DNA of 64,000 bases from Alphaproteobacteria bacterium (GTDB taxonomy: Bacteria > Pseudomonadota > Alphaproteobacteria > Micavibrionales > Micavibrionaceae): contig JAUHVY010000001.1 of assembly GCA_030424975.1 (NCBI GenBank), positions 369,093 through 433,092 on the forward strand, in the 5' to 3' direction. Under the pieces are notes generated by a model. The model was not told where the DNA came from and searched no databases. It saw only the letters and a list, made by a program, of their open reading frames with translations. This document shows, one piece after another, positions 4,904 to 38,565 of the stretch. Both the position numbers and the translations under genes were made by a program. How positions within the stretch are numbered: the first letter of the stretch is position 1; each line of letters opens with the position of its first letter.

Positions 4904-7386
<2,483 letters not shown>

Positions 7387-9486
7387 ATGAGCGATAAATC
7401 AAGCCAAAATACAGATGGTAAAAAGGTCAATCTCCACGATGATTTTGACAAATCGCGTGGTGACGCATTAATGATTGCGCCGTGTACCGTGAAGGGTACG
7501 AACATTGCAATGGGAAAGGTAACAAAATTTCTTGATGCCTATGAGGAGCCGCAACGCGGACCTGAGTTTGGTGTCGGGTTAGAGGTCTTGAGCGAGCTGT
7601 CACCGGATGCGCAAGAAACATTAAAGGCTAAGTTTGTAGAAGAGCAAACACAACGTATTCAAAAAGCCCATGAACATGTTACCGAAATGTATCGTCGTCA
7701 CCTTTGGATACAGGCGCAAAGCCTGGAGGATTCAGTGGCGAAGCATGGTGGGACTGTTGAATTTAAGAATAGTGATGCACCATTAGAGGATCGGTTTTCC
7801 AGTGCAAAGATTACAGGCATAGATGATAAGAAAACTTTATCTTTGTTGGAGAAGCGTCAATACAATATTCAAAGCACCGCTGCAGCGGCTACTGTTCTCG
7901 CACAGAATGGTGCAAAAAAGAATATATTAAATCATGTTGCCTTTGGGCGTCGTGCTGAAGTGGCCGTGAATAATGGCTACAACGAACTTATCGAGAGATT
8001 TCAGGCGATGGATAGTCCTGAAATTCAAAAATTTATGCACGATCTGGAAGATTTTAAACGTGAGACTGTTCGCGGCCTTGAGGGTCGGGCGTCTATGAAA
8101 ATGAGCTCTATTCCCGATGGTGCCGTTGTTCTGGCCGATAAAATCCCTTCGCTTATGGCGGTGCATGAATTAAAAGACCCGGATACAGATGAGGGGCGTG
8201 TGGCTGCGCTTTTAATTAGGGGAAAAAGCTTAACTGCGCATGCATTATTTGTCGCGCAATCTTATGGCATTACAGTTGGGTTGATCGATCAGGAAACTTT
8301 TGATCGGGCTAATGATCGTGATATGTGCATTGTTTCCGGGTTGGATGATTTGGTTTTGATTGAACCTAACCAAACGGCATTGGATAATTTTAAAGGATTG
8401 ATGGAGGCACAAAGTGACGCGCAGGCCATTATGAATCGTCAATCTAAACAACATAAATCACCAAAGACCCTAGATGGTGCGAAGGTGAATGTTCGTTGCA
8501 ATTACGAAGATGTGAATGAAAATATTATGCGTACGGCAAACCCGGTCGGCTTTGGCCTGGTACGATCTGAAAACCTGTTCAATGATGATGGGGATGTCGC
8601 TGATTTATCGGATGTAACCGAAGATCAATGGTATGAGGCATTTAGGAAAGTCATGACAAACTATGGTGATTTGTCAAAGTCAGGTTACACAAAGGCAACA
8701 ATCAGGTTCATTGATACCGCAGGCGATAAAGTGGAGAAGGCCGGTGGTGTCGCACGTAATAATGAAGAACGTGAAGAATATGAGGGGCCTATTCGTGAAC
8801 GTCAAATGGGAGCTTTGCTAAGGCTGCGTGATGATTTGTCAAAGCCGCATGACGGCGGTAGAACGTATGAGGGGATGCTCGATGTTATGATGCCGATGGT
8901 GTCATCGAACGGACATTTAAAATCGATCCAAAATAAAATTGATACTGTTGCACAAGAGCGTGGGCTGGATTCCATACACATAGGCAGCATGGTTGAAATT
9001 CCGTCATACGTGTATGAGCTCGATAAATCAGAAGCGAAGTTTGTATCGATTGGTTCTAATGATTTGAGTAGCTTTATGCAGGCGCAAAATAGATATGAGG
9101 GAAATAGTGATTTGCTAAACCCTGCTTTCTTAACAGCGATGGAGCAAACAGTAAAAGGCGCGGATGCGGCCGGCATTCCATCCAGTATATGTGGTGACAT
9201 GGCATCTGACCCGAAGATGGTGCCGGTGTTGCTGGGGTTGGGTTTGCGTAACCTTTCAACACAGGTGATAATCGCCCCGCAGGTGAAAACGATTGTTTCT
9301 CGTGTGGACACAGACGAGGCGTATGAGTTGGTGCAGGAAATAAAACAAGCAGACACCCCCGAGGAGCGTATGGCGGTTTTGAGCCGTTTTAACGAAGAAC
9401 GTCTCGGGCTGGCGGTGGGTAAGCCATTATCTATGGATTGGACACCTCCAAAAGGCCCTTATCACCCTTCACCGAGCAATGATTAA
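7387..9486 (+). CDS. PEP-utilising enzyme, phosphotransferase-system Enzyme I-like
   Basis: A 699-residue protein with the domain order of PTS Enzyme I. It has a helical N-terminal region, a swivelling phosphohistidine domain with His285 in KSLTAHALFVAQ, and a C-terminal PEP-binding barrel. The barrel keeps Arg393 (GFGLVRSENLF), MVEIPSYVYE, IGSNDLSSF and Cys602 in CGDMASD, the position of the catalytic cysteine. Canonical Enzyme I has TSH and RTEFLF, so this is a divergent paralogue. It is also longer (about 575 is usual) and has no GAF domain as in PtsP. No HPr or EII gene is visible nearby. The next gene encodes a GgpPS-type enzyme. Confidence 0.75.
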   Translation: MSDKSSQNTDGKKVNLHDDFDKSRGDALMIAPCTVKGTNIAMGKVTKFLDAYEEPQRGPEFGVGLEVLSELSPDAQETLKAKFVEEQTQRIQKAHEHVTEMYRRHLWIQAQSLEDSVAKHGGTVEFKNSDAPLEDRFSSAKITGIDDKKTLSLLEKRQYNIQSTAAAATVLAQNGAKKNILNHVAFGRRAEVAVNNGYNELIERFQAMDSPEIQKFMHDLEDFKRETVRGLEGRASMKMSSIPDGAVVLADKIPSLMAVHELKDPDTDEGRVAALLIRGKSLTAHALFVAQSYGITVGLIDQETFDRANDRDMCIVSGLDDLVLIEPNQTALDNFKGLMEAQSDAQAIMNRQSKQHKSPKTLDGAKVNVRCNYEDVNENIMRTANPVGFGLVRSENLFNDDGDVADLSDVTEDQWYEAFRKVMTNYGDLSKSGYTKATIRFIDTAGDKVEKAGGVARNNEEREEYEGPIRERQMGALLRLRDDLSKPHDGGRTYEGMLDVMMPMVSSNGHLKSIQNKIDTVAQERGLDSIHIGSMVEIPSYVYELDKSEAKFVSIGSNDLSSFMQAQNRYEGNSDLLNPAFLTAMEQTVKGADAAGIPSSICGDMASDPKMVPVLLGLGLRNLSTQVIIAPQVKTIVSRVDTDEAYELVQEIKQADTPEERMAVLSRFNEERLGLAVGKPLSMDWTPPKGPYHPSPSND

Positions 9487-20839: not shown

Positions 20840-21331
20840 GTGGCTGGTAGTGTCAATAAGGTTATTTTGGTTGGAAATCTAGGGGCAGACCCCGATATCA
20901 GAACAATGCAGTCAGGTGATAAGGTTGTGAACCTTTCAATTGCGACTTCTGAAACCTGGAAAGACAAAATGTCAGGTGAGCGCCGTGAGAAAACGGAATG
21001 GCACCGTGTTGTTGTCTTCAATAAAGGTCTTGTAACGGTTTGTGAGAATTACCTTAAAAAAGGTGCAAAGGTTTATATTGAAGGCCAGCTTGAGACGCGC
21101 TCATGGGATCAGGACGGGCAAAAGAAATACACAACAGAAGTGGTCTTGCGTCCTTTCCGTGGTGAATTGACGATGCTTGATTCTCGTGGTGGCGGTGCGT
21201 CTGCAGGTGGTGGATATTCGCAAGAATCCTCATTTAATGATGGTGGTTATGGCGGAGGGTATGATTCCGGCGCACCGGCGCAAAAACAGGCTGCACCTGT
21301 TGATGCAATGGATGATGAAATCCCATTCTAG
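20840..21331 (+). CDS. ssb: Single-stranded DNA-binding protein
   Basis: A 163-residue SSB with a GTG start preceded by TGGAG. Residues 1-110 form the OB fold ([38 protein letters not shown]). A glycine-rich linker leads to the acidic tip DDEIPF, which docks SSB-interacting repair and replication proteins. It binds ssDNA as a tetramer in replication and repair. A passenger protein of the insertion sequence at 30883-33214 ends with a very similar tip. Confidence 0.98.
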
Positions 21332-26329: not shown

Positions 26330-26405
26330 GATCGCGTAGCTCAGCCGGTAGAGCAACTGACTTTTAATCAGTAGGTCGAGAGTTCGAATCTCTCCGCGAT
26401 CACCA
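26330..26405 (+). tRNA. tRNA-Lys (UUU)
   Basis: A 76-nt tRNA with an encoded CCA. Acceptor GATCGCG pairs with CGCGATC, the anticodon stem ACTGA pairs with TCAGT, and the loop CTTTTAA has anticodon TTT at 26363-26365. GTTCGAATC forms the T loop region. Its 3' 23 nt are part of a 27-bp segment duplicated at 30809-30835, so this gene is the integration site of the following island. Confidence 0.97.
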
Positions 26406-26409
26406 CTTT
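26383..26409. repeat. Left attachment repeat (attL) in tRNA-Lys
   Basis: A 27-bp segment covering the T-loop, the 3' acceptor strand and CCA of tRNA-Lys plus CTTT. It recurs perfectly at 30809-30835 in the same orientation. This is the usual signature of tyrosine-recombinase integration, in which the tRNA is restored by the incoming copy. Confidence 0.85.
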
Positions 26410-30743: not shown

Positions 30744-30808
30744 TTAGGTGCAGCATTTGGCGTCATAAGTGATTGATTTTTATGTGTAATGTGGTTTTTG
30801 AGTGAGTT

Positions 30809-30835
30809 TTCGAATCTCTCCGCGATCACCACTTT
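30809..30835. repeat. Right attachment repeat (attR)
   Basis: A perfect 27-bp copy of 26383-26409, the 3' end of tRNA-Lys plus CTTT, without the rest of the tRNA. It marks the right junction of the island. Confidence 0.85.
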
Positions 30836-30874: not shown

Positions 30875-30882
30875 AATTCTTT
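30875..30882. repeat. Target-site duplication, left copy
   Basis: AATTCTTT directly abuts the left inverted end of the insertion sequence and is repeated at 33215-33222. An 8-bp duplication fits the IS1 and IS1595 groups. Confidence 0.85.
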
Positions 30883-30901
30883 GGTAGTGTCTCAGTTTGA
30901 A
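30883..30901 (+). repeat. Left terminal inverted repeat of the insertion sequence
   Basis: Nineteen bases identical to the reverse complement of 33196-33214; the match stops at the next base. Confidence 0.9.
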
Positions 30902-30947
30902 AAATGAGCATATAGCATAATTTCCCAGCGTCTGCTATTATATACGC

Positions 30948-31169
30948 ATGAGCAAGACACCGAAAAGACCACGAGACCCAAACCAGTTAGCAAAGCTAAT
31001 ATGCGATATTGCTACGGGTGAGGAAGAGAATAAGCAGCCAGAAGAGAAAAAAGAGGGGCAACAGCGTGGGGGATTAGAGGGCGGCAAAGCGAGAGCAAAA
31101 GTGTTAGGCGCAAAAGAAAGAAGTGATATAGCCAAAAAGGCCGCAGAAGCGCGATGGAAAAAAGATTGA
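30948..31169 (+). CDS. Passenger gene 1: small basic histone H1-like protein
   Basis: A 73-residue protein starting MSKTPKRPRDPNQLAKLICD and ending in a lysine/alanine-rich tail with GGKARAK, KERSDIAKKAAEARWKK. The tail is the short KARA...EIAKKAAxARW motif found in many small proteins annotated as histone-like or RNA-binding in alphaproteobacteria. It lies 46 nt inside the left end of the insertion sequence, with an AT-rich TATTATATA upstream that may be the promoter. A role in binding the element's nucleic acid is inferred only. Confidence 0.75.
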   Translation: MSKTPKRPRDPNQLAKLICDIATGEEENKQPEEKKEGQQRGGLEGGKARAKVLGAKERSDIAKKAAEARWKKD

Positions 31170-31265
31170 TTTTTTGTTTGATATTTTTTTCTAAAAATGA
31201 GATTCTGGTAAAAAGAGGCGGATAAACAGACCGCTAAGTTCCAAGTCAACTATACTTATCGTGTC

Positions 31266-31342
31266 GGATACGAACGGCAATGTGCGCTAACACATTCTAG
31301 CCGTCCGTTCCGCATTCTCGTATATGCCCGTACGGATACGGG
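31266..31342 (+). other. Two adjacent RNA-like hairpins inside the insertion sequence
   Basis: First structure: AATGTG (31279-31284) and CACATT (31291-31296) close a CGCTAA loop, extended below by GGC/GCC and CG/CG pairs with bulges (31266-31311). Second: CCCGTA (31327-31332) and TACGGG (31337-31342) form a perfect stem with a CGGA tetraloop. They lie in a 288-nt non-coding stretch between passenger genes and have no T-run, so a plain terminator is unlikely. Confidence 0.4.
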
Positions 31343-31457
31343 TCTTGGGAAAATGCAAAACATATTGCTCTCCTTTTGTTTACTTTATTGTAAAGACTGG
31401 TTAAAGCCAGTCGCTCCGGTTTGCATCATTGCATTCCGCGCTGTTTCAGAACGCGTC

Positions 31458-31667
31458 ATGACAAAACCAAAGCCAAAAAAAGAACGGCCTGTTTATCCTT
31501 ATTTTGAATATACACTAAATAGACATCAGTATGCAACCCCTGAATACATTGAATACAAAATTTTAGAGACAGTTGAATTAAGGCTTGTCTCCTATGTTTT
31601 TTCGATGTATGTTATCAATCATGGAAGATTCTTTTGTAAATATGATTTCTCGCAAACAAAAGCTTGA
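31458..31667 (+). CDS. Possible passenger gene 2 (or 5' part of passenger gene 3)
   Basis: A 69-residue frame starting MTKPKPKKERPVYPYFEYTL. It has no clear Shine-Dalgarno sequence and overlaps the following passenger gene by 74 nt in another phase. A run of six T residues at 31597-31602 lies in the overlap. Adding one base of phase there would join the two frames into one product. It could be an independent gene, the original N-terminus of the next gene split by an indel, or a chance frame. Confidence 0.35.
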   Translation: MTKPKPKKERPVYPYFEYTLNRHQYATPEYIEYKILETVELRLVSYVFSMYVINHGRFFCKYDFSQTKA

Positions 31668-32094
31668 GAAAAGCATTAAAACGCTTGAAAAGCGCATGGA
31701 ACGTGAGAAAAAAGAATATGATGAACTTTGTATTGCTATTGATGTGATGCAGAGGTTTGGTGTGCAGGTTGATGAATCTGGAAGCGCAACACAGGAAGGT
31801 ATACCTGCAACAATAGGTGATATGGCACTTGAGATACTAAAAGAGTATCCAGATGGCCTGACAGCAAGCCAAATTTTAAAGGAAATCCAAGATAGGTGGA
31901 AGCCAGAGCTTGTTAGAACAAGCCTTTCCCCGCCGCTGTCGCGTCTAAAAGAGAAAGAATTAATTGAGTATATAGATAGCAATGCTCATTGGAGAATACC
32001 TAAAAACGAAGAAAGCTCAAGTGCTGTAACACTTGAGCCTTCAGGCAATTTCGATCAAGGAGATGATTATGATGAAGATGAAATACCATTCTAA
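31594..32094 (+). CDS. Passenger gene 3: coiled-coil/winged-helix protein with an SSB-like C-terminal tip
   Basis: About 166 residues from ATG 31594, which has AAGG about 10 nt upstream; ATG 31621 is the alternative. A basic coiled coil (KLEKSIKTLEKRMEREKKEY) is followed by a winged-helix-like domain (IGDMALEILKEYPDGLTASQ to AHWRIP, with VRTSLSPPLSRLKEKELIEY as the recognition region). A disordered acidic tail then ends DEDEIPF. This window's own SSB ends DDEIPF, and such tips dock host repair and replication proteins. The layout suggests a DNA-binding adaptor carried by the element to engage the SSB interactome. That is inference. Confidence 0.7.
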   Translation: MFFRCMLSIMEDSFVNMISRKQKLEKSIKTLEKRMEREKKEYDELCIAIDVMQRFGVQVDESGSATQEGIPATIGDMALEILKEYPDGLTASQILKEIQDRWKPELVRTSLSPPLSRLKEKELIEYIDSNAHWRIPKNEESSSAVTLEPSGNFDQGDDYDEDEIPF

Positions 32095-32128
32095 TCAAAA
32101 CCTTGGAACTTCAAACAAGGAGGTTTTT

Positions 32129-32170
32129 ATGGCTTGGTATCGCCAGTCCTTATTATCGGTTAGCGTCTGA
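32129..32170 (+). CDS. Possible 13-codon ORF with a perfect ribosome binding site
   Basis: AAGGAGG (32117-32123) is placed 5 nt before an ATG that opens MAWYRQSLLSVSV and a stop. It sits between passenger gene 3 and a terminator-like hairpin, upstream of the transposase. It may be a leader peptide or the 5' remnant of a lost gene. Confidence 0.25.
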   Translation: MAWYRQSLLSVSV

Positions 32171-32206
32171 TAAAACCGTACTTAATCGGCGATTTTACAG
32201 ACGGGG

Positions 32207-32222
32207 GGCGGCTTTTGCCGCC
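32207..32222 (+). terminator. Terminator-like hairpin upstream of the transposase gene
   Basis: GGCGGC, a TTTT loop and GCCGCC form a perfect GC stem followed by TTCCTTATTTCT. It would end passenger transcripts and insulate the transposase gene from outside transcription. Confidence 0.6.
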
Positions 32223-32338
32223 TTCCTTATTTCTACTTTATATATCTTGAGACAAATAAGCAATCAATAATTGCTTTTAATGGATTCTAAGTGAACTTTA
32301 TGCTTGACTGAATCCAGATAATTCACTATGCTTAAATC

Positions 32339-33205
32339 ATGAATAAGAAATCGATAAAAGAACGCGCACAAATCCTTAGTCTTCTCGTAGAAGGCAATAG
32401 CCTACGCGCAACAACTCGCATCATCCGTGATATTCAGGGTGGATGCTCTATTAACACAGTTACAAAGCTGCTTGAAGAAGTTGGTGAGGCTTGCGCTTGG
32501 TATCAAGATAAAAACCTTCGTAACCTTCCTTGTAAGCGTGTGCAGGTTGATGAAATCTGGTCATTTGTATATTCAAAGCAAAAGAATACACCAGACGAAA
32601 AGAAAGACGTTGCGGGCGATGTTTGGACATGGACAGCGATTTGCGCGGATACAAAACTTATTCCATCATGGCGCATTGGAAGCCGTGACGCTGCAACAGC
32701 GCAAGACTTTATTGCCGATCTAGCAGGACGCATGGCAGAACGTATTCAACTCACTAGTGACGGATTTACAAAATATAAAGACGCTGTAGAAAACTCATTC
32801 GGCGCGGATGTTGATTATGCAATGCTTGTTAAAATCTATGGCGATAGCGTAGAAGGTCAAAAGCGTTACAGCCCTGCACATTGTACGGGCGCACAGAAAC
32901 GCCGCATCACAGGCAACCCAGAACAGAGCCATGTGAGTACAAGCTATGTAGAACGTCAGAACCTAACAATGCGTATGTCTATGCGCCGTTTTACCCGTTT
33001 AACCAATGCTTTTTCAAAGAAGCTAGACAATCACGCTCATGCTATTGCACTTCATTTTATGCACTATAATTTTGTGCGTATTCACAAGAGCCTTAAAGTT
33101 ACACCTGCTATGGCGGCAAATGTAACACAAAATCTATGGTCTCTTGAGGACGTTGTGAAAATGAGTGATGAATATTGGGATGAAAAAAATAATAATTCAA
33201 ACTGA
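32339..33205 (+). CDS. IS1-group DDE transposase
   Basis: A 288-residue transposase. An N-terminal HTH (RATTRIIRDIQGGCSINTVT) precedes the DDE core: QVDEIWSFVYSK gives the first Asp and LTSDGFTKY the second. A later conserved block, STSYVERQNLTMRMSMRRFT, supplies the Glu. The segment DVWTWTAICADTKLIPSW is characteristic of transposases annotated as IS1 family in alphaproteobacteria. The frame is intact and ends inside the right inverted repeat, a common IS arrangement. No programmed frameshift is needed, unlike classical IS1. It should be able to mobilise the element. Confidence 0.92.
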   Translation: MNKKSIKERAQILSLLVEGNSLRATTRIIRDIQGGCSINTVTKLLEEVGEACAWYQDKNLRNLPCKRVQVDEIWSFVYSKQKNTPDEKKDVAGDVWTWTAICADTKLIPSWRIGSRDAATAQDFIADLAGRMAERIQLTSDGFTKYKDAVENSFGADVDYAMLVKIYGDSVEGQKRYSPAHCTGAQKRRITGNPEQSHVSTSYVERQNLTMRMSMRRFTRLTNAFSKKLDNHAHAIALHFMHYNFVRIHKSLKVTPAMAANVTQNLWSLEDVVKMSDEYWDEKNNNSN

Positions 33206-33214
33206 GACACTACC
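33196..33214 (-). repeat. Right terminal inverted repeat of the insertion sequence
   Basis: Exact reverse complement of 30883-30901; it overlaps the last codons of the transposase gene. Confidence 0.9.
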
Positions 33215-33222
33215 AATTCTTT
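33215..33222. repeat. Target-site duplication, right copy
   Basis: AATTCTTT, identical to 30875-30882, immediately after the right inverted end. Confidence 0.85.
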
Positions 33223-36477: not shown

Positions 36478-38565
36478 TTATCCGCCTCTGAAATATTTTA
36501 TCGCTTGATCCCGTTCGAAGAGGTAGAGGAGCGTTTTGAGCGCATCACCACGTTCCGATTCTAATGTTGGGTCACGGGATATTATCAATTTTGCGTCATC
36601 ACGGGCGGCGGCGAGCAAATCGCCATGCGCCGCAAGATTGGCAATTTTGAAGTCCGTTGCACCGCTTTGTTTTGTTCCTAAGATATCTCCGCTACCGCGC
36701 AGTTCCAGGTCTTTTTCTGCAATCACAAATCCGTCTTCGGTTTCGCGCATGATGCTTAATCGTTCCTTTGCGACTTCACCAAGCGGGGCGGAGTAAATAA
36801 GGAAACAGTATGATTGTTCGCTGCCTCGACCGACGCGTCCGCGTAACTGGTGTAACTGCGACAGGCCAAAACGCTCCGCATGTTCAATAACCATAATTGT
36901 GGCTTCGGGCACGTTCACCCCAACCTCAATAACAGTGGTTGCTACCAAAATATCCAGATCACCACGCGCAAATTTTTCCATGACGTCGTCTTTATCCGTG
37001 GCTTTCATACGGCCATGAACCAATCCGATGCGTTCACCGAAATGCGCCTTGAGGATGTCATAGCGTTCCTCAGCCGCCGCAAGGTCCATGACTTCGGATT
37101 CTTCTACAAGCGGGCAAACCCAATATACACGGGTGCCTTCGGCAATTTTGCGTGTTAATCCGGCAACGACTTGATCCATTTTTTCCTTGGAAAATAGCAT
37201 GGTTTCAATCGGCTTTCGTCCCGGGGGCTTTTCATCAAGCTTTGAAATCTCCAAATCGCCATACGCCGTTAAGGCCAATGTGCGAGGGATAGGGGTTGCC
37301 GTCATCACAAGAATATCGGTGCCTTTGCTTTTATTCGAAAGCTCCAGACGTTGATGCACACCAAATCGGTGCTGCTCGTCAATAACGGCGAGCCCTAAAT
37401 CGTGATAATCGACGTCCGCCTGAAATATTGCGTGTGTACCGATAATGATTTGTGCTACGCCGTCACGTATTTGTTTAAGGATGAGTTCACGTGATTTCCC
37501 TTTATCACGCCCAGTAAGTGTGACGAAACGCACACCCGCAGCATCAAGCCACGGCTTCAAGCTTTCACCATGTTGCCGCGCTAGAATTTCAGTCGGCGCC
37601 ATAAGGGCTGCTTGTGCGCCGTTTTCAACTGCATTCATCATGGCCATAGCCGCAACAATTGTTTTACCGCTGCCGACATCACCCTGTAATAATCGCAGCA
37701 TTCGGCCAGGTTGCCCCATGTCATGATCAATTTCATACAGGCTGCGTTTTTGTGCACCTGTTAAGTTAAAGGGTAAAACATGCTCTATCTTTTCGCGTAG
37801 CGTCGTGGATTGTTCAAAAATGCGGCCGTTTATTTTGCGTTGCCTATCCCGCACAAGCGCAAGCGTGAGCTGGTTTGCAAGCAGTTCATCATAGGCTAGA
37901 CGCATGCGGTTTTTGTGCATGGGATCAAGTTCTTGCTCGCTTTGCGGTTCGTGCAAAGATTTTAACGCGATATGCCAATCATTCCATCCTTCGCGATTTT
38001 TATGTGCATCATCAACCCATTCGGGTAGGGCGGGGATGAAAGAGAGGGCAGATTGCTGTGCCTTGCGCAGGACTTTGTTGGTTATGCCTGCCGTCAGGGG
38101 GTAAATAGCTTCCACTGTTTCCAATGTGTCGCGGGCACTTGGTTTTGCAATATCAGGGTGCATCATTTGCGGCTGCCCTTGGAAGTATTCAACCTTGCCA
38201 CTGATGATGACGCGCTCACCAATAGGCAGAAGTTTTTCCAGCCAAGGCTTTTTTGCATGAAAGAAGACGAGGGATATTGCGCCGCTCTCATCACTTGCCT
38301 TTACGCGATAGGGCAAAGATTTGCGCGCATTCGGAAAATGTCGCTCAATCGTGACTTCCGTGGTCATAATTTTACCGTTCGGTGCATGGGCAATGGGGCA
38401 AGAGAATCGCCTGTCTATGAAATCGACGGGGGCATGAAACAATAAATCGAGGATTTTAGGCCCGCTAATAAGGTTTTCAAGCAGCTTGCCATTACGCGGG
38501 CCGATACCGGGGAGGCCGGTAACCGCACGAAATAGAGGATCTAATGCAAAAGGGCGTTGACTCAT
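36478..38565 (-). CDS. recG: ATP-dependent DNA helicase RecG
   Basis: A 695-residue branch-migration helicase that remodels stalled forks and recombination intermediates. The N-terminal wedge/OB domain (about 1-250) contains LPGIGPRNGKLLENLISGP. The helicase motor has Walker A LLQGDVGSGKT, motif Ia APTEILARQH, motif II VIDEQHRFG, motif III MTATPIPRT and motif VI QLHQLRGRVGRGS. The length and motif set are complete. recG lies head to head with sdhE, and mfd is a little further on, a familiar alphaproteobacterial cluster. Confidence 0.97.
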   Translation of the reverse strand: MSQRPFALDPLFRAVTGLPGIGPRNGKLLENLISGPKILDLLFHAPVDFIDRRFSCPIAHAPNGKIMTTEVTIERHFPNARKSLPYRVKASDESGAISLVFFHAKKPWLEKLLPIGERVIISGKVEYFQGQPQMMHPDIAKPSARDTLETVEAIYPLTAGITNKVLRKAQQSALSFIPALPEWVDDAHKNREGWNDWHIALKSLHEPQSEQELDPMHKNRMRLAYDELLANQLTLALVRDRQRKINGRIFEQSTTLREKIEHVLPFNLTGAQKRSLYEIDHDMGQPGRMLRLLQGDVGSGKTIVAAMAMMNAVENGAQAALMAPTEILARQHGESLKPWLDAAGVRFVTLTGRDKGKSRELILKQIRDGVAQIIIGTHAIFQADVDYHDLGLAVIDEQHRFGVHQRLELSNKSKGTDILVMTATPIPRTLALTAYGDLEISKLDEKPPGRKPIETMLFSKEKMDQVVAGLTRKIAEGTRVYWVCPLVEESEVMDLAAAEERYDILKAHFGERIGLVHGRMKATDKDDVMEKFARGDLDILVATTVIEVGVNVPEATIMVIEHAERFGLSQLHQLRGRVGRGSEQSYCFLIYSAPLGEVAKERLSIMRETEDGFVIAEKDLELRGSGDILGTKQSGATDFKIANLAAHGDLLAAARDDAKLIISRDPTLESERGDALKTLLYLFERDQAIKYFRGG

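Follow-up and report, generated by a model that had tools for sequence, protein, structure and literature searches.

The passenger gene of an IS1-type transposon in the window, i.e. the complete 64,000-nucleotide stretch of alphaproteobacterial DNA analyzed in this study, encodes a predicted winged-helix protein with a disordered acidic tail that closes like the C-terminal tip of the SSB from the same window. As the most likely explanation, which we hold with cautious confidence from the sequences compared, this protein would use a genuine SSB-type peptide to dock partners of the host SSB. An earlier sequence-only reading had given DEDEIPF as the end of the passenger and DDEIPF as that of the SSB, and both ends were confirmed from the frames. 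The SSB gene (20840..21331, + strand) matches TIGR00621, and its product ends in MDDEIPF.

The transposon and its passenger gene

The transposon (30883..33214, + strand; 2332 bp) has perfect inverted ends (GGTAGTGTCTCAGTTTGAA) and is flanked by an 8-bp target-site duplication (AATTCTTT; left copy 30875..30882, right copy 33215..33222). The passenger gene thus lies inside a bounded element, and its earlier description as transposon-borne holds. The transposase (32339..33205, + strand; 288 aa in one frame) is of the IS1-type DDE kind and scored 31.7 bits with PF03400 (cut-off 24.1). Perfect inverted ends, 8-bp duplication, transposase type and passenger placement are shared with IS1/IS1595-type transposons bearing passengers, but the transposase reached only 61.6 bits with NF033558, the NCBIfam IS1 transposase equivalog, and thereby misses its cut-off of 100. 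IS1595 relatives carrying passenger genes have been described in print. A 73-aa ORF (30948..31169, + strand; RPRDPNQLAK...GGKARA...AAEARW) had no match in Pfam or NCBIfam; related ORFs were found in L037/L069, L051 and L065, and the G079 element has one recognized by its motif. Transposons with the ends GGTAGTGTCTCAGTTTGAA were recovered with inverted ends and an 8-bp target duplication at several insertions (window, AATTCTTT; L037, AAAAATAC; G079, GCGACGTT; L065, GAGTGTTG). Passengers sit between the 73-aa ORF and the transposase. Relatives of the window transposase were present in 37 of 385 genomes of the class, its own counted in. Passenger and transposase each gave one match in their own genome. 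When plasmids were compared with the whole element by a distant DNA search, five records matched, all inside the transposase part.

The frame 31594-32094 (+ strand), which had been taken in full as the gene, is open to the tip and ends in ...GDDYDEDEIPF* (NFDQGDDYDEDEIPF; tip codons 32071..32091, + strand). Its start was revised: the ATG at 31621 (MEDSFVNM...) is the likelier start codon, since the start in the sister element (MKDSVANM...) stands at the matching place. The passenger gene is accordingly placed at 31621..32094 (+ strand; 157 aa).

Some further features were observed around the gene. Between the 73-aa ORF and the passenger (31240-31360), a stretch of about 50 bases is nearly identical in the sister element; this block, which had no match in Rfam, folds with -42.2 kcal/mol (z -3.15), a value reached by 2 of 200 shuffles. 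A micro-ORF of 13 codons after AAGGAGG is present at 32129-32170 (MAWYRQSLLSVSV) as well as in the sister element (L037:2014; MAWYRQSSSSVDV). The 3′ end of a tRNA-Lys (26378-26409) is repeated 4.4 kb downstream at 30804-30835 (32 nt, 94%), a pair placed as if bounding an integrated island, which would include a DUF6538 fragment and a TPR protein, and the transposon begins 47 bases past the right repeat.

Predicted structure of the passenger protein

The structure model (mean pLDDT 81.7, pTM 0.48) consists of a single long helix (residues 2-45), a winged helix predicted with confidence (about 61-129) and an acidic tail modelled as disordered. An OB fold is absent from this model, and no SSB model was among the Pfam or NCBIfam matches of the protein; the SSB-family trait present in it is the acidic C-terminal tip closing in P-F (DEDEIPF). 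The body had earlier been read as a coiled coil with a winged-helix-like domain. The model agrees with the long N-terminal helix and the winged helix; the coiled coil itself goes beyond it, and the helix would probably form a dimerizing one. With Foldseek, no match to the model was obtained at E 0.001 or better, and a second look returned generic winged helices (linker histone, Fur, PadR, cullin; Z up to 9.5), from which therefore no function was read. The winged helix, generic as its fold matches are, probably binds nucleic acid.

HARE-HTH (PF05066), itself a winged helix, had weak matches in 8 of 38 family members (E up to 0.01, the lowest being 4.2e-5), but all scores printed, including 16.5 bits for the window protein, were under the curated cut-off of 25.9 bits. 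Weak matches were also obtained to phrog_1123 (12 of 38 members) and NF050184, a VpaChn25_0724 family phage protein (8 of 38), whereas the window protein matched neither at the limits used. Matches of family members in PADLOC were scattered and weak.

Distribution of the family and of the tip

Its relatives place the passenger in an unnamed family of Alphaproteobacteria with a patchy distribution. We call it patchy because matches were few: a relative was found in 4 of 142 genomes of an order-level sample (own counted in), and a class-wide draw of 385 genomes yielded six matches including its own both in a single-sequence search, where one of the other five was false, and in a profile search. 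Scanning for a conserved stretch detected 36 loci in species genomes, all alphaproteobacterial by title, and four loci in viral contigs. The passenger as single-protein query had no match in genome contigs, plasmids or viral contigs; L052 had none in plasmids and L044 none in phages, and in viral contigs L044 matched itself alone. The candidate L006 was dropped as a relative, its 525-aa frame resembling a UbiB-type kinase by eye.

For the family count, a protein was scored as tipped when it closed in [ITV]PF preceded by acidic residues, and L002, L037 and L038, being the same genes as L051, L069 and L048, were counted once each. The tip occurs in 8 of 44 distinct aligned members, i.e. the window protein, L069, L048 (Micavibrio UBA6139; LEEEIPF), L049 (Agrobacterium vitis; ENDIPF), L050 (Novosphingobium; DSEIPF), L052 and L053 (Rhizobium and a Rhizobiales genome; DDDIPF) and L044 (viral contig; EDDTPF), and is thereby kept in three Rhizobiaceae-type genomes. 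The remaining 36 lack it, as do the family-like L003 (cut off at the contig start, ending NQAAE), L090 and L091, which stand outside alignment and tree. Therefore, the tip is dispensable for whatever the family does, and the frequent retention of the body without it speaks against a tip-centered function for the family as a whole. Conservation of the tip among homologues, proposed earlier as a check, was thus found in the close relative described below and not in these members, which keep the body alone. A retained body with a lost tip, named earlier as a refutation, is accordingly seen in most distant relatives but not in the only close one. On a tree built from rows cut 26 residues past the SLSP motif, with many long branches, the tip label required four changes compared to a shuffled mean of 7.5, and none of 500 shuffles was as low.

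Other ends were noticed among the tipless members. Phe is penultimate in 8 of 36 (L039, L045, L047, L058, L063, L064, L067, L072), and L076 and L079 carry QPSLF, which resembles a beta-clamp motif; both kinds of ends are possibly other docking peptides.

The closest relative found, L069 (G417, JAIOYC010000080.1), is 63% identical to the passenger, lies in a complete sister transposon with the duplication AAAAATAC, and ends in EFEEEIPF. Between both genes, dN is 0.25 and dS 2.19, a value that brings synonymous sites close to saturation; the three terminal residues are unchanged and the Ile codon differs synonymously. In this only close relative found, the tip is, judged by these substitutions, kept under purifying selection.

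Rarity of the tip

The DNA pattern used to search for tips, [DE][DE][ILMV]PF followed by TRR, also admits TGG, which is no stop. In the own genome (2,428,954 bases), it matched three times, namely at the SSB, the passenger and one TGG, and a reversed control pattern gave no match; the frames truly ending in [DE][DE][ILMV]PF are only those of SSB and passenger. In 16 further genomes, 30 matches were obtained, eight of them with TGG. The 22 with true stops comprise one SSB per genome (16), the proteins of G079, G417 and G432, whose genomes were picked for these tipped proteins, and three others; by eye, these are an aldehyde-dehydrogenase-like protein, a short-chain-dehydrogenase-like protein and a small one encoded close to a Rep-like frame. 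A looser tip pattern was applied to 5168 frames of at least 60 aa from 84 sources (666,057 bases, partly overlapping loci), a sample biased by the choice of sources holding relatives or transposases; it returned 17 rows, 13 of which represent nine distinct tipped proteins, some more than once, while two are SSBs (the one in L047 identified by eye) and two are unrelated. Since the pattern counts in the own and the 16 further genomes are so low, the tip on any given small protein is far above chance, and eight of the 44 aligned relatives are tipped.

At L109:997-1518 (G009), a small protein ending in AVDDEIPF lies close to a Rep-like frame and is not annotated as SSB; it may belong to a phage or plasmid and bind ssDNA.

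Properties of the C-terminal tails

Tipped tails comprise 27-54 residues with a net charge of -6 to -12, and their linkers differ in length and sequence. This strong acidity is consistent with an autoregulatory tail, whose tip would fold as a DNA mimic onto the winged helix or a partner subunit and tune DNA binding with no host partner involved. PMC8509808 reports that part of the SSB C-terminal region sits in the ssDNA-binding site of SSB. However, acidity alone needs no exact I/T/V-P-F end, the tipless members L055 (net -7) and L083 (net -9) have acidic tails as well, and the tail is disordered in the model; we regard autoregulation as improbable.

Where the passenger tail begins, the gene contains within its coding sequence a perfect 9-bp stem with a 6-nt loop (32015..32038, + strand; codon-shuffle p 0.015). 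Perfect stems of at least 8 bp at the tail start were found in 18 of 41 family genes (three of the 44 have tails too short to be counted), compared to 1 of 41 preceding cores and 16 of 275 other ORFs, which were taken from the same loci with their last 105 nt and some of which are perhaps not genes. The corresponding Fisher P values of 9e-6 (versus cores) and 1e-9 (versus other ORFs) treat related genes as independent. In 15 of 18 cases, the stem begins no more than 35 nt into the tail segment. Carriers are L004, L005, L057, L059, L061, L063, L064, L065, L067, L070, L072, L073, L074, L078 and L083 together with three of the eight tipped members (window, L049, L053). The hairpins measure 8-14 bp and differ in sequence between members yet remain paired; they may represent regulatory hairpins or former terminators absorbed into the frame.

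This bears on the possibility that the tail is a functionless end, arisen by read-through of former 3′ sequence, with PF ends owing to chance and descent. Besides the hairpin excess, as expected from an absorbed terminator, the wide differences between tails from member to member and the few origins allowed by the tree counts agree with it. On the other hand, the window protein and its sister keep the tip with synonymous sites near saturation, the tip persists in the three Rhizobiaceae-type members and recurs in the sequence-unrelated G079 passenger described below, and just three other non-SSB proteins have such an end in the 16 genomes. A functionless end is the least probable of the readings considered here.

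By eye, the region at about 6390-6470 in L052 and L053 and the tails of L057 and L065 resemble 3′ ends of tRNA or tmRNA. This was not borne out, as ARAGORN, run on 12 loci including these four, detected nothing in the tails, and Rfam gave nothing in the tails of L052, L053, L057 and L059. Between L052 and L053, pS is 0.17 in the tail and 0.93 in the core, as if the tail had been exchanged or constrained as DNA.

Genomic settings of tipped members

Tipped members are found in different surroundings. The gene of L048 is flanked by hsdS and hsdM, and the type I restriction locus to which these belong also holds an Abi_2 gene and one of the ImmA type. L049, L052 and L053 lie near pheT (gene identified by eye) in Rhizobiaceae. 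Scans of L048, L049 and L052 for inverted ends around the gene found none, and for L050 gave partial matches alone (71-86%) among the matches listed (five of 12 pairs). L044 resides in a viral contig within a different transposon, with 23-nt perfect inverted ends (5833-5855 and 8185-8207) and an IS1595 transposase (NF033547, E 1e-53). L065 from Brevundimonas belongs to an element of the window's kind with the same 19-nt ends and the duplication GAGTGTTG, in which the family member is tipless and oriented opposite to the transposase. Hence tipped members occur in two kinds of transposons, of which that of the window carries both tipped and tipless members, and the tip is a trait of part of the family, not of transposons or of transposition as such. 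The former view of the tip as a transposon feature is not supported, given L048, L049, L052 and L053, tipped with no transposon found, and the tipless L065 element.

These settings also allow the protein to be seen as a decoy or inhibitor, whose tip would fill SSB-tip pockets and keep off host nucleases, helicases or SSB-sensing defences. This would either shield the mobile element or be part of a locus for defence or counter-defence. Such a role is suited by the carriers in transposons (window, L069, L044, G079) and in the restriction locus with its Abi_2 gene, as well as by the dinD gene adjoining the G079 carrier. However, the carriers beside pheT resemble, by eye, ordinary chromosomal genes, and SSB is abundant, so that a low-copy protein with a single such peptide would be a poor competitor unless its winged helix concentrated it locally. 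We consider a decoy rather unlikely.

A second tipped passenger

Among 29 transposase loci other than the window's own, scanned for tips with flanks of up to 1.5 kb, G079 has the only other tipped passenger (154 aa, ending in ESDDDVPF); the other 28 have none. The G079 element is complete (3481 bp, 20-nt perfect ends, duplication GCGACGTT) and also holds a small ORF of the GGKARA type. Its tipped passenger adjoins a dinD gene, which scored 243.2 bits with the NCBIfam model of DNA damage-inducible protein D, just above the 242 bits required. The family profile gave the G079 protein a probability of 4%, and the two appear unrelated by sequence; by eye, the G079 passenger may likewise consist of a coiled coil and a winged helix. 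It had no match in plasmids, and L096-L099 matched it weakly (E 0.001-0.005).

G079, a single case, is the best support for the idea of the sequence-only reading, by which a mobile element could use the tip to draw host helicases, nucleases or the replisome to transposition intermediates or to block them. In its broadest version, transposons would have repeatedly recruited SSB-tipped DNA-binding passengers, as the family in IS1-like and IS1595 elements and the unrelated G079 passenger by dinD may suggest. At single-stranded intermediates of transposition or repair, the tip would draw away helicases, nucleases and recombination mediators that partner with the host SSB, and the family would serve as a platform swapping short C-terminal docking peptides (SSB tip, QPSLF in L076 and L079, penultimate Phe). 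This extended version is doubtful; a role of the passenger in transposition is possible.

Proposed docking of host SSB partners

For the docking of SSB partners, which we prefer, the following mechanism is proposed. The tail of one set of members, including the passenger, would end in an SSB-type docking peptide, which would fit the SSB-tip pockets of host genome-maintenance proteins such as RecG, encoded in the window (36478-38565), and RecO and PriA, encoded elsewhere in the genome; partners docked in this way would be tethered to DNA bound by the winged helix. The analysis shows the tip with its conservation and selection, the genomic settings and the fold prediction, whereas DNA binding, dimerization, docking, the choice of partner and the role are all inferred. 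Because some relatives, both in and outside transposons, keep the tail, it is probably a working docking handle.

Docking is considered the most likely reading given the rarity of the tip, its retention in the closest relative and in three Rhizobiaceae-type genomes, the modelled fold, the presence of RecG, RecO and PriA, and published work on the SSB tip. According to PMC5872125, SSB partners recognize the terminal Phe together with acidic residues, and the tip has over 14 partners; direct binding of RecG to the tip is given in PMC10164576. According to PMC8509808, PriB fused to the SSB C-terminus gained stimulation of PriA, and the peptide is thus able to function away from SSB. This chimera likewise presents the SSB C-terminus on another DNA-binding body, but it was engineered, whereas the present case is natural. 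As in SSB-Ct (DDDIPF in E. coli), acidic residues and a terminal I-P-F follow a disordered linker of variable length; the difference is that here they end a winged-helix protein instead of an OB-fold SSB. The beta sliding clamp, another replication hub, is bound by transposases of several families, as stated in PMC4549789. Such transposases are similar in that a mobile-element protein addresses a replication hub of the host through a short peptide; there, however, a transposase contacts the clamp, while here a passenger bears a putative SSB-type docking tip.

In open-library searches, which cover few subscription papers and thus give a weak negative, no natural protein other than SSB was found described as bearing such a tip on a winged helix, in agreement with the sequence-only reading, which knew of no description either. 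An acidic C-terminal tail ending in Phe is also present in phage T7 gp2.5, itself an ssDNA-binding protein, and one study on DdrB reportedly uses the phrase "SSB-like C-terminal".

The SSB tip is a hub peptide of bacterial genome maintenance, and its proposed function here is easily tested with peptides against well-studied partners. If docking holds true, a natural display of this tip on a non-SSB winged-helix protein would constitute a ready-made adaptor or competitor and would reveal one route by which mobile DNA reaches the repair enzymes of its host.
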